From contig NZ_JAFBCZ010000008.1 of assembly GCF_016907925.1 (NCBI RefSeq), positions 62,001 through 126,000 on the forward strand: 64,000 bases of DNA. Direction: 5' to 3'. This document shows positions 7,181 through 11,479 of this stretch, piece by piece; the stretch's first letter is position 1; every line of letters begins with the position of its first letter. Below the pieces are notes generated by a model. It was not told the origin of the DNA. It made no database searches and was given only the letters and a program-made list of their open reading frames with translations. Position numbers and translations under genes: made by a program. The stretch comes from Herpetosiphon giganteus. GTDB lineage: Bacteria; Chloroflexota; Chloroflexia; Chloroflexales; Herpetosiphonaceae.

Positions 7181-7247
7181 ACCACGCTTGCCCATAAACC
7201 ACCTCTCTACAAGCCTCGCGGCACACTTCTGGCTTGCGAACACCTGC

Positions 7248-7253
7248 TATAAT
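7248..7253 (+). promoter_or_regulatory. -10 box of the GH57 gene
   Basis: A consensus TATAAT lies 52 bases before the start codon. A convincing -35 hexamer is not visible at the standard distance. Confidence 0.5.
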
Positions 7254-7305
7254 GGGAACCGACCTCTGCAACATGTCCCGCATGTTCCGCACAGAAGGAG
7301 CATCT

Positions 7306-9282
7306 ATGCCAAAACAAGGTGCATTTACGTTTGTCTTACATAGCCACTTGCCCTATTGTCGCAAAGCTGGCCGCTGGCCTCACGGTGAAGAATGGCTTCA
7401 CGAGGCCGCTTCCGAGACGTATATTCCACTGCTCAATGCGCTGACTGATCTGATCAACGATGGGGTTACTCCTCGCTTGACGATTGGGATTACGCCAATT
7501 CTGACCGAACAATTGGCCGACCCAACGATTTTGCACAATTTCGAAGAGTATCTCGACGAAAAGATTGTTGCAGCTCAAGCTGATATTGATCGGCTGGCCG
7601 ATGTGCAGGCCGTTTGGGAAGCCGCCCAACGTGCTGAAACAGAGCCAGAGCCAGAGCCGGAGTCAACGCCACTGCTTTCGAGCGAAGAGCTTGAAAGCTT
7701 AATTACCAAAAACGATGCCCTGCTTTCTTCAACTGCTGGTGATTCGCCAGCCCCTCTCCATGCAGGCTTGTTGAGCGCCACCACTGTTGCTAGCGCCGAC
7801 GTTGCGGAAATTGATGAAGTTGTTGATGCTGATGTTGAGGCAGAACTTGACATTGAGCCAGAGCCTGAAGAACCTGCTGCCCTAGAGCAACCAGATCCCC
7901 ACAAGGCCTATTTGGCTCAGTGGTATCGCGATTGGTATAGCATGATCAAGCGCTCGTTTATCGAACGCTACAACCGCGATATTGTCGGAGCCTTCCGCCA
8001 ATTGCAAGATGCTGGCTATATCGAAATTATCACTTGTGGCGCAACCCATGGCTACTTGCCGTTGGTGAGCCGCGATTCAACGATTTATGCCCAAATTGCG
8101 GTTGCAGTGCAAAGCTACGAGCGCCATTATGGCCGCAAACCCAAGGCGATTTGGCTGCCAGAGTGCGCCTATCGCCCAGCCTACTACCCTGAAGATCGCA
8201 GCGAAACCGAGCGCAAACCAGGGGTCGAAGAATTTCTCGAAGCTCAAGGCATCGAGTGCTTCTTCGTCGAAACCACCACCATCGAGGGTGGCGCACCATT
8301 GGATAAAGCCGAGGGCAAAATTCTTGGCCCATATGGCGATACGCTGCGCAAATATGTTGTGCCAGTTACCCGCGAAGTGCCGCCAACTGGCAATAGCACG
8401 CTTCAGCCCTATTTGGTTGGCTTGAGCGATAAAGTTGCTGCGATTGGTCGCCATCACAAAACTGGCTTGCAGGTGTGGTCGGCAGAATGGGGCTACCCAG
8501 GCGATGCCAACTATCGCGAGTTCCATCGCAAAGATAGCGAAAGCGGCATGCAATATTGGCGCATCACTGGGCCAAAAGTCGATCTTGGCTTTAAAGATTA
8601 CTATCATCCCGATTGGATTAACGACAAAATTCATGCCCACGCCGATCACTTCACCAATTTGGTGCATCAGGTCATCAGCGAATATCGTGGCCAAACTGGG
8701 CGCTATGGCCTGATTTCATCAAACTACGACACCGAATTGTTCGGCCACTGGTGGTTTGAAGGGGTCGATTGGATGCGCGAAGTGCTGCGGCGCTTGGCTG
8801 CCAATCCCGATATTGATCTGACCACGGCTTCAGAATATATTGCCAATAATCCACCGCGTGAATCGTTGAACCTGCCCGAAAGCTCGTGGGGTTCCAATGG
8901 CACGCATCAAACCTGGCTCAATCCCGAAACCGAGTGGATGTGGCCAATTATTCATGCGGCAGAAAAACGCATGGAGGGTTTAGTCGCAGCCTATCCCCAA
9001 ACTGATGGCGATTTGGCTGAGGCCTTGGCCCAAACAGCCCGCGAATTGCTGCTGTTGCAATCGAGCGATTGGCCTTTCTTGGTCACAACTGGTCAAGCCC
9101 AAGATTACGCCACCAAGCGCTTTAACGAGCATGTCGATCGGTTTAGCCAATTGGCTGATGCAATTGAGGCTAATGATCTTGGCTTAATGCGCGAACTCAC
9201 CGCCAGTTTCAACGACCTTGATAATCCATTCCCAACGATTGATTATCATGTGTTTGCTGCTCGCGAGGGTTTGGTCGCCTAA
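7306..9282 (+). CDS. GH57 family 1,4-alpha-glucan branching enzyme with acidic insert
   Basis: A 658-residue glycoside hydrolase family 57 protein of the branching-enzyme type, which forms alpha-1,6 branches in glycogen. The five family regions are present: HSHLPY (12-17), GATHGYLPL (245-253), WLPECAYRP (283-291) with the predicted nucleophile Glu286, NYDTELFGHWW (473-483) with the predicted acid/base Asp475, and a later ASEYI. Residues 108-200 are an insert absent from the compact Thermus enzyme of about 520 residues. It is rich in Glu, Pro, Ala and Ser and looks disordered. AGAAGGAG five bases upstream selects this ATG over upstream in-frame starts. Without the insert, length is normal for the family. 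Confidence 0.9.
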   Translation: MPKQGAFTFVLHSHLPYCRKAGRWPHGEEWLHEAASETYIPLLNALTDLINDGVTPRLTIGITPILTEQLADPTILHNFEEYLDEKIVAAQADIDRLADVQAVWEAAQRAETEPEPEPESTPLLSSEELESLITKNDALLSSTAGDSPAPLHAGLLSATTVASADVAEIDEVVDADVEAELDIEPEPEEPAALEQPDPHKAYLAQWYRDWYSMIKRSFIERYNRDIVGAFRQLQDAGYIEIITCGATHGYLPLVSRDSTIYAQIAVAVQSYERHYGRKPKAIWLPECAYRPAYYPEDRSETERKPGVEEFLEAQGIECFFVETTTIEGGAPLDKAEGKILGPYGDTLRKYVVPVTREVPPTGNSTLQPYLVGLSDKVAAIGRHHKTGLQVWSAEWGYPGDANYREFHRKDSESGMQYWRITGPKVDLGFKDYYHPDWINDKIHAHADHFTNLVHQVISEYRGQTGRYGLISSNYDTELFGHWWFEGVDWMREVLRRLAANPDIDLTTASEYIANNPPRESLNLPESSWGSNGTHQTWLNPETEWMWPIIHAAEKRMEGLVAAYPQTDGDLAEALAQTARELLLLQSSDWPFLVTTGQAQDYATKRFNEHVDRFSQLADAIEANDLGLMRELTASFNDLDNPFPTIDYHVFAAREGLVA

Positions 9283-9288
9283 ACCCGC

Positions 9289-9326
9289 AAACCCATGGCG
9301 GGGTTTAATCGCTACGCCATGGGTTT
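9289..9326 (+). terminator. 12-bp hairpin after the GH57 gene
   Basis: AAACCCATGGCG pairs perfectly with CGCCATGGGTTT across a 14-base loop, seven bases after the stop. There is no clean T-run behind it, so it may protect the RNA end rather than terminate. Confidence 0.5.
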
Positions 9327-9398
9327 TGCCCCGCAATCAACTCTTTTTGAATCGCTGAATCAGCTTTGATTTGGCGATTCTATTAGTAATTTAGGCCT

Positions 9399-10760
9399 AT
9401 GAAAGTACTTGTGCTTGGCAACAATGGCGCAGCCCATGCCTACGTTTGGAAGTTGTTCAATAGCCAGCGAATTGATAGTTTGGCCACCATACCTGGCAAT
9501 GGTGGTACAAGTTTGCTTGTGCCAAATGCAGAGCCATTTGAAAGTATGACCGAGCTGGCAAAGTGGGCCTACGATGAGCATTTTCAGGTCATTGTGCCAG
9601 CAGAGGGCAGTTATCTGAGCAATGGCGTGGCCGATGCAGCGCTCATGTATAAAATTCCGGTCTGTGGGCCGCCCAAACAAGCGGCAGTGCTTGAACGCTC
9701 ACGTTTGTGGCTCAAAGAATTTCTCAATCGGCATCAAATTCCAACCTCAACTGGCCGCGCCTTGGGTGATTTAGCAACTGCTGAGCGTTACGTTGCCTCG
9801 CAACCACTGCCGATTGTGCTCTGGGGCGATTATCCTTCCGAATACGATGGGGCATACACTGATCGCGCTGAAGCACTGGCTGCCTTGGCTGGGATTTTTG
9901 CCTTGCCGCCACGCCCAGGTCATTATCGCGGCGTGGTCATTGAGCAACCAGCACTTGGCCCAACCGTCGCGCTTTCAGCCCTAACCGATGGCACAACCTT
10001 GATTCCAATGCAAGCGGTGCGAATCTACGATCGGCTTGATGATAACGATCAAGGCTGGGCTGCTGAAGGCATGGGCGCGCATACCACGCCCAGCGGTATC
10101 CTCAAGCAAATTGGCGATTATCTGAGTGCCACCATTTTGGAGCCAATTCGGGCGGCGTTGCTGCGCGATAAACTGCCGTGGTGGGGTATTTTGGGTGTCG
10201 ATTGTGCAATTACCGCACGCGGGCCACAAGTCTTGCGCATTCGCACAACGCTGAGCGATCCCGAGGCCCAAGTGCTTTTGCCCTTGCTCGAAGACGATTT
10301 GTTTCCGCTCCTGGTTGCGGCCAATAATCGCAGTTTGCTCAATGTGCCAGCGCTGCGTTGGCGACCAGAAGCCAGCGTTGGCGTGACCATCGTGGCAAGC
10401 GGCTATCCCCATAGTTTTAGCACCGGCATGGCAATTGATGGCATCGCCGAGCTGGAGCCTGGCATTGTGGCGTTTCAAAATGAAACTGCCAATCCCAATG
10501 GCTTGCGTTATGTTTCCGAAGAAATGCATATGCCCGAAAAGCGCAGCTTGTTGAGCGGGGTTAGCAGTGCGCTGAGCGATGCGATGTTAGTCCGTTCAAT
10601 GGGCGGCAATCACCTTTCTTCAAAGGCTGGCCGCATTGTAACGGTGACGGCGCAAGCAGCGAATTTGGCGGAAGCGCATGCCAAAGCCTATCGCAATCTC
10701 AAACGCCTACGAATCCCATCATCGACTTATCGCAACGATATTGGCCTGCGTGAACTCTAG
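9399..10760 (+). CDS. PurD (GAR synthetase) homologue lacking active-site motifs
   Basis: A 453-residue protein co-linear with phosphoribosylamine-glycine ligase over its whole length: MKVLVLGNNG, the IPGNGGTS loop, CGPPKQAAVLERSRLWLKEFL, a VVIEQPALG strand, LSDPEAQVLLPLLEDDL and a C-terminal NDIGLREL. The residues that make PurD work are not kept. GGREHAL reads NNGAAHAY, the ATP-grasp loop KADGLAAGKGV reads LWGDYPSEYDGAYT, TGGMGAYSP reads AEGMGAHTT, and the metal-binding EFNxRFGDPE reads RIRTTLSDPE. It is also longer in the C-terminal third than E. coli PurD (429 residues). I infer a non-catalytic paralogue or an enzyme with a changed reaction. The reading frame is intact, so it is not a decayed pseudogene. 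Confidence 0.75.
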   Translation: MKVLVLGNNGAAHAYVWKLFNSQRIDSLATIPGNGGTSLLVPNAEPFESMTELAKWAYDEHFQVIVPAEGSYLSNGVADAALMYKIPVCGPPKQAAVLERSRLWLKEFLNRHQIPTSTGRALGDLATAERYVASQPLPIVLWGDYPSEYDGAYTDRAEALAALAGIFALPPRPGHYRGVVIEQPALGPTVALSALTDGTTLIPMQAVRIYDRLDDNDQGWAAEGMGAHTTPSGILKQIGDYLSATILEPIRAALLRDKLPWWGILGVDCAITARGPQVLRIRTTLSDPEAQVLLPLLEDDLFPLLVAANNRSLLNVPALRWRPEASVGVTIVASGYPHSFSTGMAIDGIAELEPGIVAFQNETANPNGLRYVSEEMHMPEKRSLLSGVSSALSDAMLVRSMGGNHLSSKAGRIVTVTAQAANLAEAHAKAYRNLKRLRIPSSTYRNDIGLREL

Positions 10761-10840
10761 AAAATCGGTCTTTAGTCGCTAGGCGTGGCGAAACAGCGCG
10801 CGTATGCTGCGTTTAATCTACAAGTTGAGGGAAGTTGAAT

Positions 10841-11479
10841 ATGTATCTGCTGCGCACCATTGGATTGGGGCTGTTATTAATCGTGCTTGCTGGCTGTTCG
10901 CTCAATGCCGAACCACTGTCAATCCAAGAAGCCTACGATCAAGGCTTAATCGATTTGGAATTTAAAAACTCCGGGACTGCTGGTGGAGTCCTGATGATGA
11001 TAGTCACTGGCAAAACTGATCGCTCGATTCGGATCACGATTCCTGCTGGCCAAATTTTGGACAATCAAACCGATTATCACGAAGATATGGTCTTGATTGC
11101 CTATGAAGGTCGGCTTGATACCCCCGAAGATACGTATATCCAAGCAAAGTCGCTGATTACAAAACAGGCTACCGCTCGCTATGGCGTTATCGAAGCCTAC
11201 AGCCTTGAATTGTATGCTGAGCCAGGCGCTGAAACTGATACCTATGCGTTTGATGGTTTTGTTGATGCGGAATTGCAACGCCTCGTTGACCATTTGTCCA
11301 TGCAAAGCAGCGAAGAATTTGTAGGCAAACAATTGGCAATTTGGGCCTTGACCGATAATCCCGATCACGATACTGCTTCAGAGATTATGCAATTTAACGA
11401 GCATGATTTGGCTCAGGCCCGCACGTTTTTGCTGGCTGCCAAATTTGATCCGACCGATTATCGTCTGTTTCAAGAGTAA
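10841..11479 (+). CDS. Putative lipoprotein of unknown function
   Basis: A 212-residue protein with an N-terminal hydrophobic segment ending in LAGC, a clear lipobox, so it should be exported and lipid-anchored. The mature part has no motif I recognise; it is acidic and predicted to be mixed alpha/beta. GAGGGA lies eight bases before the ATG at 10841; an in-frame TTG at 10835 is less likely. It sits between the PurD-like gene and a strong bidirectional terminator, and is probably transcribed alone. Confidence 0.7.
   Translation: MYLLRTIGLGLLLIVLAGCSLNAEPLSIQEAYDQGLIDLEFKNSGTAGGVLMMIVTGKTDRSIRITIPAGQILDNQTDYHEDMVLIAYEGRLDTPEDTYIQAKSLITKQATARYGVIEAYSLELYAEPGAETDTYAFDGFVDAELQRLVDHLSMQSSEEFVGKQLAIWALTDNPDHDTASEIMQFNEHDLAQARTFLLAAKFDPTDYRLFQE

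Follow-up and report, generated by a model that had tools for sequence, protein, structure and literature searches.

The window, a stretch of 64,000 nucleotides from Herpetosiphon giganteus, carries a gene for a full-length relative of the GAR synthetase PurD whose catalytic residues are gone and whose ATP-grasp fold is retained, and which is probably a non-catalytic pseudoenzyme with a selected role. We coined the name PurD2 for the paralogue family to which this gene belongs. The original prediction for this DNA, that the protein is a pseudoenzyme or else catalyses a different reaction, stands: the genome has a second, canonical purD, and PurD2 is conserved, intact, selected and accompanied by conserved neighbours.

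A full-length PurD paralogue with an altered active site

Full-length co-linearity with GAR synthetase had been proposed, and the 453-aa protein indeed contains the three Pfam PurD domains in PurD order, all above the Pfam cut-offs (Table 1). Its match to the NCBIfam purD model TIGR00877 (E 3e-67, 227.2 bits) misses the equivalog cut-off of 288 bits; judged by sequence, its homology to PurD is far beyond chance. In the three alignments listed, solved GAR synthetases match the window protein over approximately residues 1-370, and the C-terminal piece is weak. The same 6.16-Mb genome has, on another contig, a canonical purD that carries all the motifs and has purN downstream; a third, weak purD match in this genome corresponds to a different ATP-grasp protein.

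Table 1. Features of PurD2 and its surroundings, in window positions and PurD2 residues or codons
Feature	Window position	Residues or codons	Strand	Remarks
GH57 1,4-alpha-glucan branching enzyme	7234..9282		+	upstream of PurD2 in 8/9 Herpetosiphonaceae (f1) genomes
Strong hairpin between GH57 gene and PurD2	9287..9329		+	-25.9 kcal/mol for 9283-9340, z -3.3
PurD2, full-length PurD paralogue with a degenerate active site	9399..10760		+	ORF from ATG to stop, 453 aa plus stop
GARS_N (Pfam)		residues 1-99		E 3e-18
GARS_A (Pfam)		residues 101-290		E 2e-22
GARS_C (Pfam)		residues 403-451 (best stretch)		E 7e-15
AAHA for R-E-H-A of GGREHA (R, E lost; H, A kept)	9429..9440	codons 11-14	+
PGN loop, kept	9492..9500	codons 32-34	+	each position in 63/64 family members
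WGDYPSEYDG for KADGLAAGKG, ATP site	9822..9851	codons 142-151	+
YD for canonical H-K (Lys of ATP/Mg site); Lys to Asp	10026..10031	codons 210-211	+
RIRTTLSDPE for EFNARFGDPE	10236..10265	codons 280-289	+
Lipoprotein-like ORF, 214 aa, no family match	10835..11479		+	downstream of PurD2

In the window protein, GGREHA has become NGAAHA, KADGLAAGKG has become WGDYPSEYDG, NTGGMGAY has become AAEGMGAH, and EFNARFGDPE has become RIRTTLSDPE. Within the last of these, the E and N of EFN, which we take to be metal ligands of PurD, are both replaced by Arg (R280 and R282), the glycine-binding R is replaced by T, and the final E is retained. The reported replacement of GGREHAL, KADGLAAGKG, TGGMGAYSP and EFNxRFGDPE is therefore correct in that all four are altered, but it is partial, since H13, A14, D144, G151, G224-A227 and D287-E289 are retained, GMGA and DPE among them. 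Likewise, the description of the protein as lacking ATP-grasp or metal residues holds for the changed catalytic residues but not for the ATP-grasp fold itself, which is present.

The available part of a QM/MM study of A. aeolicus PurD (PMC8880213) gives K103, K143, E185, E192 and K214 as ATP contacts, D212, R287 and E292 as glycine contacts, and E100 and K214 as Mg contacts, and describes the binding of PRA as not clarified. When these positions are carried over to PurD2, where residue types agree if positions beyond 143 are shifted by a constant two, the glycine contacts would correspond to I209, T284 and E289 of the window protein, with two of the three lost, and the charged ATP contacts to R102, W142, E182, T189 and D211, with one of the five kept.

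The nearest named relatives of the window protein are those of H. llansteffanensis and H. geysericola (96% identity) and H. aurantiacus (89%). In a protein search of 60 relatives, full-length forms at 96-39% identity occur in three families of Chloroflexales, which the named loci place as f1 (Herpetosiphonaceae), f3 (with Roseiflexus) and f4 (with Chloroflexus, Oscillochloris, Chloroploca and Viridilinea); a diverged form at 27-30% occurs in f2.

Residue conservation and predicted fold

Residues were compared in an alignment of one PurD2 from each of 66 genomes (the 67 carriers minus G440) and 24 canonical PurD. The canonical set was selected with a pattern that contains GxGGREHA and GDPE, which in itself makes the set uniform at those letters; six canonical loci failing the pattern were excluded, and other motifs played no part in the selection. 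In canonical numbering, E12, P70, K103, K151, E190, D210, K212, T223, E281, N283 and R285 are kept in none of the 63-65 readable PurD2, and the E and N of EFN are found in 0/64 PurD2 versus 24/24 canonical PurD. The substitutions themselves recur: N283 is Arg in all 59 readable members of f1, f3 and f4 and His in 5/5 of f2, and Asp or Glu takes the place of K212 in 57 of 59 readable sequences from these three families, f1, f3 and f4. Near-invariant in PurD2 are H13 (63/63), D145 (65/65), G227 (65/65) and E290 (64/64), and the hinge Glu E183 is present in 64 of 65 readable sequences.

The Arg of GGREHA, retained in 48/63 PurD2, and the Lys of KADG, retained in 31/65, are both lost in the lineage of the window; given that they vary among relatives, the family is defined only by the losses common to all members. 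The published A. aeolicus ATP and glycine contacts, as far as the available text lists them, would coincide under our mapping with many of the lost positions. E100, a Mg contact in the same source (PMC8880213), is retained in 51/65 PurD2, which speaks against all metal contacts having been lost outright. K143, R11 and G150 are still present in many members of f3 and f4, which may have residual nucleotide binding.

The family also has a conservation pattern of its own. At a 95% threshold, with 54 near-complete PurD2 of f1, f3 and f4 set against 24 canonical sequences, 36 columns have the same fixed residue in both groups, 4 carry a different fixed residue in each, another 36 are fixed in PurD2 only and 74 in canonical PurD only; the relatedness of the sequences inflates such counts. 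G35, R156, Y210, D268 and R282 are among the 40 PurD2-specific columns (4 switched and 36 fixed only there).

The AF2 model of PurD2, built from 19 sequences, has a pLDDT of 89.7 and a pTM of 0.87, with residues 377-402 below a pLDDT of 50. Its top Foldseek matches are 15 PurD chains, and VIA-align gives Z 42.5-48.6 for 13 PurD entries, the best being 2yw2 (Z 48.6, rmsd 2.2 over 412 residues), versus about 27-28 for the next families. A PurD fold is confidently predicted for PurD2. PurK, PurT and biotin carboxylase share the superfamily fold at those lower Z values, but with only 10-14% identity, and the PurD matches lie far above them (Z 42-49).

The 40 columns that are at least 95% fixed in 54 PurD2 of three families, together with the constancy of the last Glu of DPE and of the hinge Glu, are what would be expected of an enzyme with another reaction, its cleft remodelled for a different substrate by the changes N to R, K to D, K to R and T to A, which no longer performs the usual two-metal ATP-grasp chemistry. 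This reading is nevertheless unlikely: no readable member retains the two EFN metal residues or the Asp and Arg of the glycine site, most ATP contacts are likewise missing throughout, and no conserved partner enzyme across the families points to a particular reaction. We know of no ATP-grasp ligase that works without metal.

Distribution and relation to purine genes

With PurD2 and canonical copies distinguished by score, place and length, PurD2 is present in 67 of the 82 Chloroflexales genomes, one of them holding a 160-residue fragment (G440, f3). By family, this amounts to 9/9 genomes of f1, 41/41 of f4, 5/6 of f2 and 12/26 of f3, and canonical purD matches above the cut-off are found in 68 of the 82. 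Genus g6 is without PurD2 in 11/11 genomes, 9 of which have canonical purD.

Across 150 genomes of the class, near-complete members of f1, f3 and f4 reach 567-744 bits with the PurD2 profile, and the four listed members of f2 reach 263-317 bits. The best match outside the order reaches 295 bits and covers only positions 1-366, like canonical purD; because these ranges overlap, f2 is not separable by score alone and was typed by coverage and lost residues. PurD2 was not found in class-mates outside Chloroflexales, among which G444, G472, G491, G501 and G502 have two profile matches each, the second possibly a fragment. The five best candidates outside the order (G139, G212, G094, G168 and G086) were rejected as PurD2, as a canonical purD query matches them better. 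In the tree, a 100/100 branch separates 24 canonical rows from 55 PurD2 rows, three of them from f2, whose placement within the PurD2 part is weak (35/18) and involves long branches that meet. We read the tree as supporting the split between PurD2 and canonical PurD rather than an order of events.

In G052, a single fragmented genome (93% complete, 740 contigs), PurD2 and purH are present and purF, purD, purN, purM and purL are below the cut-offs. G050, which has no PurD2, contains purH and is without purF, purM, purD and purL. Early purine genes are apparently missing in four genomes of f3, the Roseiflexus family (G050, G052, G438 and G439).

The occurrence of canonical purD in 9/11 genomes of g6, all without PurD2, indicates that PurD2 is dispensable for purine synthesis, and PurD2 in G052 without early purine genes argues, in that one fragmented genome, against a purine-only role. 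Both observations weigh against the proposal that PurD2 serves canonical PurD as a subunit or allosteric regulator. According to the accessible parts of PMC5201418 and PMC3663545, the trypanosome AdoMetDC prozyme and a dead deoxyhypusine synthase are dead paralogues that regulate an active sister, in the former source by activating it; PurD2 resembles them as a conserved dead paralogue beside an active enzyme, with both genes in most genomes of the order and the fold kept. Unlike these cases, as far as they are described there, PurD2 is present in G052, where no canonical PurD was found; in addition, the nine g6 genomes have the supposed partner alone, and PurD2 is not beside purD in any locus read. 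We regard a prozyme-like partnership as highly unlikely.

That PurD2 might be a backup or low-activity GAR synthetase is suggested by four members (G055, G053, G423 and G432) that exceed the purD cut-off once in-frame pieces are summed, and by G013, at first sight a complete genome, in which it is the only PurD visible to the search. The 7.5 kb upstream of purN in G013, however, reads N where its genus-mate G019 has canonical purD; the low purD score there is not biology, and this genome was dropped as evidence, so nothing follows from it. With the catalytic residues absent, a backup synthetase is very improbable.

Intactness and selection

PurD2 frames exceed 420 aa in 57 of the 66 extracted, the other nine being cut by a contig end, split or slightly shorter. 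Pairwise dN/dS (Nei-Gojobori; six Herpetosiphon genomes, 15 pairs for each gene) is 0.039-0.076 for PurD2 versus 0.028-0.078 for canonical purD, although dS exceeds 1 in nine of the 15 PurD2 pairs, for which the values are rough. PurD2 is intact and under strong purifying selection in these six genomes, in agreement with the original prediction that the open frame is kept by selection. A decaying pseudogene, to which the lost active-site residues and the split frames in four draft contigs (L146, L147, L150 and L151) might point, is scarcely credible, as the window frame is open, most frames are long and dN/dS of 0.04-0.08 contradicts decay.

Gene neighbourhood

The conserved neighbours of PurD2 are folD and fchA in f4 and GH57 in f1. 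In f4, where Pfam identified the neighbours through FTCD_C and both FolD domains, folD lies directly upstream on the same strand in 38/38 testable genomes (38 of 41 have enough upstream sequence), and fchA precedes folD in 36/36 testable genomes, two further contigs ending short of it. The gap between folD and PurD2 is at most 6 bases, overlaps counted, in 13/38; a 618-base gap in G428 stems from the second half of a split frame.

In the ninth f1 genome, G006 (L035 5470-11879), PurD2 lies between a GH13-like protein of 1191 aa, with a one-base frame overlap, and a DUF4147-MOFRL gene, whose product is presumably of the glycerate-kinase type. The hairpin in front of the window gene has a counterpart in the GH57-PurD2 gap of G001 (L034 about 8031-7997; z -5.1), which looks unlike it in sequence. 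Both are possible terminators or attenuators, and they weaken the case for co-transcription of GH57 and PurD2 in Herpetosiphon. A relative of the 214-aa lipoprotein-like ORF is also downstream of PurD2 in G001. The GH57 enzyme of the window contains an acidic, Pro/Glu-rich stretch at approximately residues 135-225, ahead of the part best matched by NCBIfam branching-enzyme models.

GH57 precedes PurD2 in one of the five f2 genomes, G024 (L193 3061-5837), where it overlaps the PurD2 start, so that the f1 arrangement is seen in another family. In the other four (G009, G015, G018 and G021) a subtilase adjoins PurD2, the Pfam label coming from G018 and the remaining assignments from clustering or reading. 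Within the stretches fetched for 11 f3 genomes, some of them short, folD and GH57 were not found near PurD2, and a TrmA-like methyltransferase follows it in some. PurD2 adjoining purD or purN was not found in any locus read.

Functional interpretation

PurD2 is conserved under selection with its catalytic residues lost, as would be expected of a pseudoenzyme. This reading is favoured because the window protein changes two of the three glycine contacts and four of the five charged ATP contacts given in the available part of the A. aeolicus study, as well as both metal residues of EFN. With PurD (TIGR00877; 2yw2, 2xcl, 1gso) it shares its whole length, domain order and predicted fold, along with the PGN loop, the His of GGREHA, the hinge Glu and the last Glu of DPE. 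It differs from PurD in being without the EFN metal residues, the glycine contacts and most ATP contacts, in its low-confidence loop at 377-402, and in its context, which in the loci read is folD, GH57 or others and not purN.

As a pseudoenzyme, PurD2 would be an old GAR synthetase paralogue, standing beside canonical PurD in most Chloroflexales, that lost its chemistry and kept its fold. It may still bind a ligand in the N-domain/ATP-grasp cleft, for instance phosphoribosylamine (PRA), GAR or a phosphorylated sugar resembling them, and PRA would presumably be bound at the PGN and His positions. R282 and D211 would be an Arg/Asp pair where Mg-ATP used to sit, and their pairing is a guess. The function of PurD2 would then lie in binding, whether as a sensor, a scaffold or a partner for enzymes of one-carbon/purine metabolism.

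We infer that PurD2 most likely serves ligand binding or regulation in the vicinity of one-carbon/purine metabolism; a specific role in that metabolism is a tentative suggestion and somewhat unlikely as it stands. Such a partner role is proposed on the grounds that in Chloroflexaceae-type (f4) genomes purD2 comes third in a cluster, after fchA and folD. The products of fchA and folD make 10-formyl-tetrahydrofolate, the formyl donor used on GAR. Since the families differ in their neighbours, with folD in f4, GH57 in f1 and neither of these in the f3 genomes or most of f2, the one-carbon link may be only local. In its fullest form, the proposal is speculative and decidedly unlikely: PurD2 would be a novel metabolic coupling protein, a dead GAR synthetase that senses phosphoribosylamine or GAR and tunes FolD/FchA towards 10-formyl-tetrahydrofolate so that one-carbon supply keeps pace with the demand for purines, and it would have been redeployed beside glycogen branching in Herpetosiphonaceae.

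Dead paralogues of enzymes are a known general kind that has been studied extensively in some families, and PurD2 is an unusual and testable example. Our literature search, outside which most subscription papers lay, recognised no described PurD pseudoenzyme, dead ATP-grasp protein or PurD2 of Herpetosiphon or Chloroflexi. The four PurD2 that cross the purD cut-off would be named GAR synthetase, a warning for annotation; pathways reconstructed automatically would then include an active enzyme that is probably absent. If the reading is true, PurD2, a dead PurD that an order has retained, would illustrate clearly how an ATP-grasp ligase becomes a binding protein, with its own set of fixed residues and, in one family, a conserved folate gene cluster.
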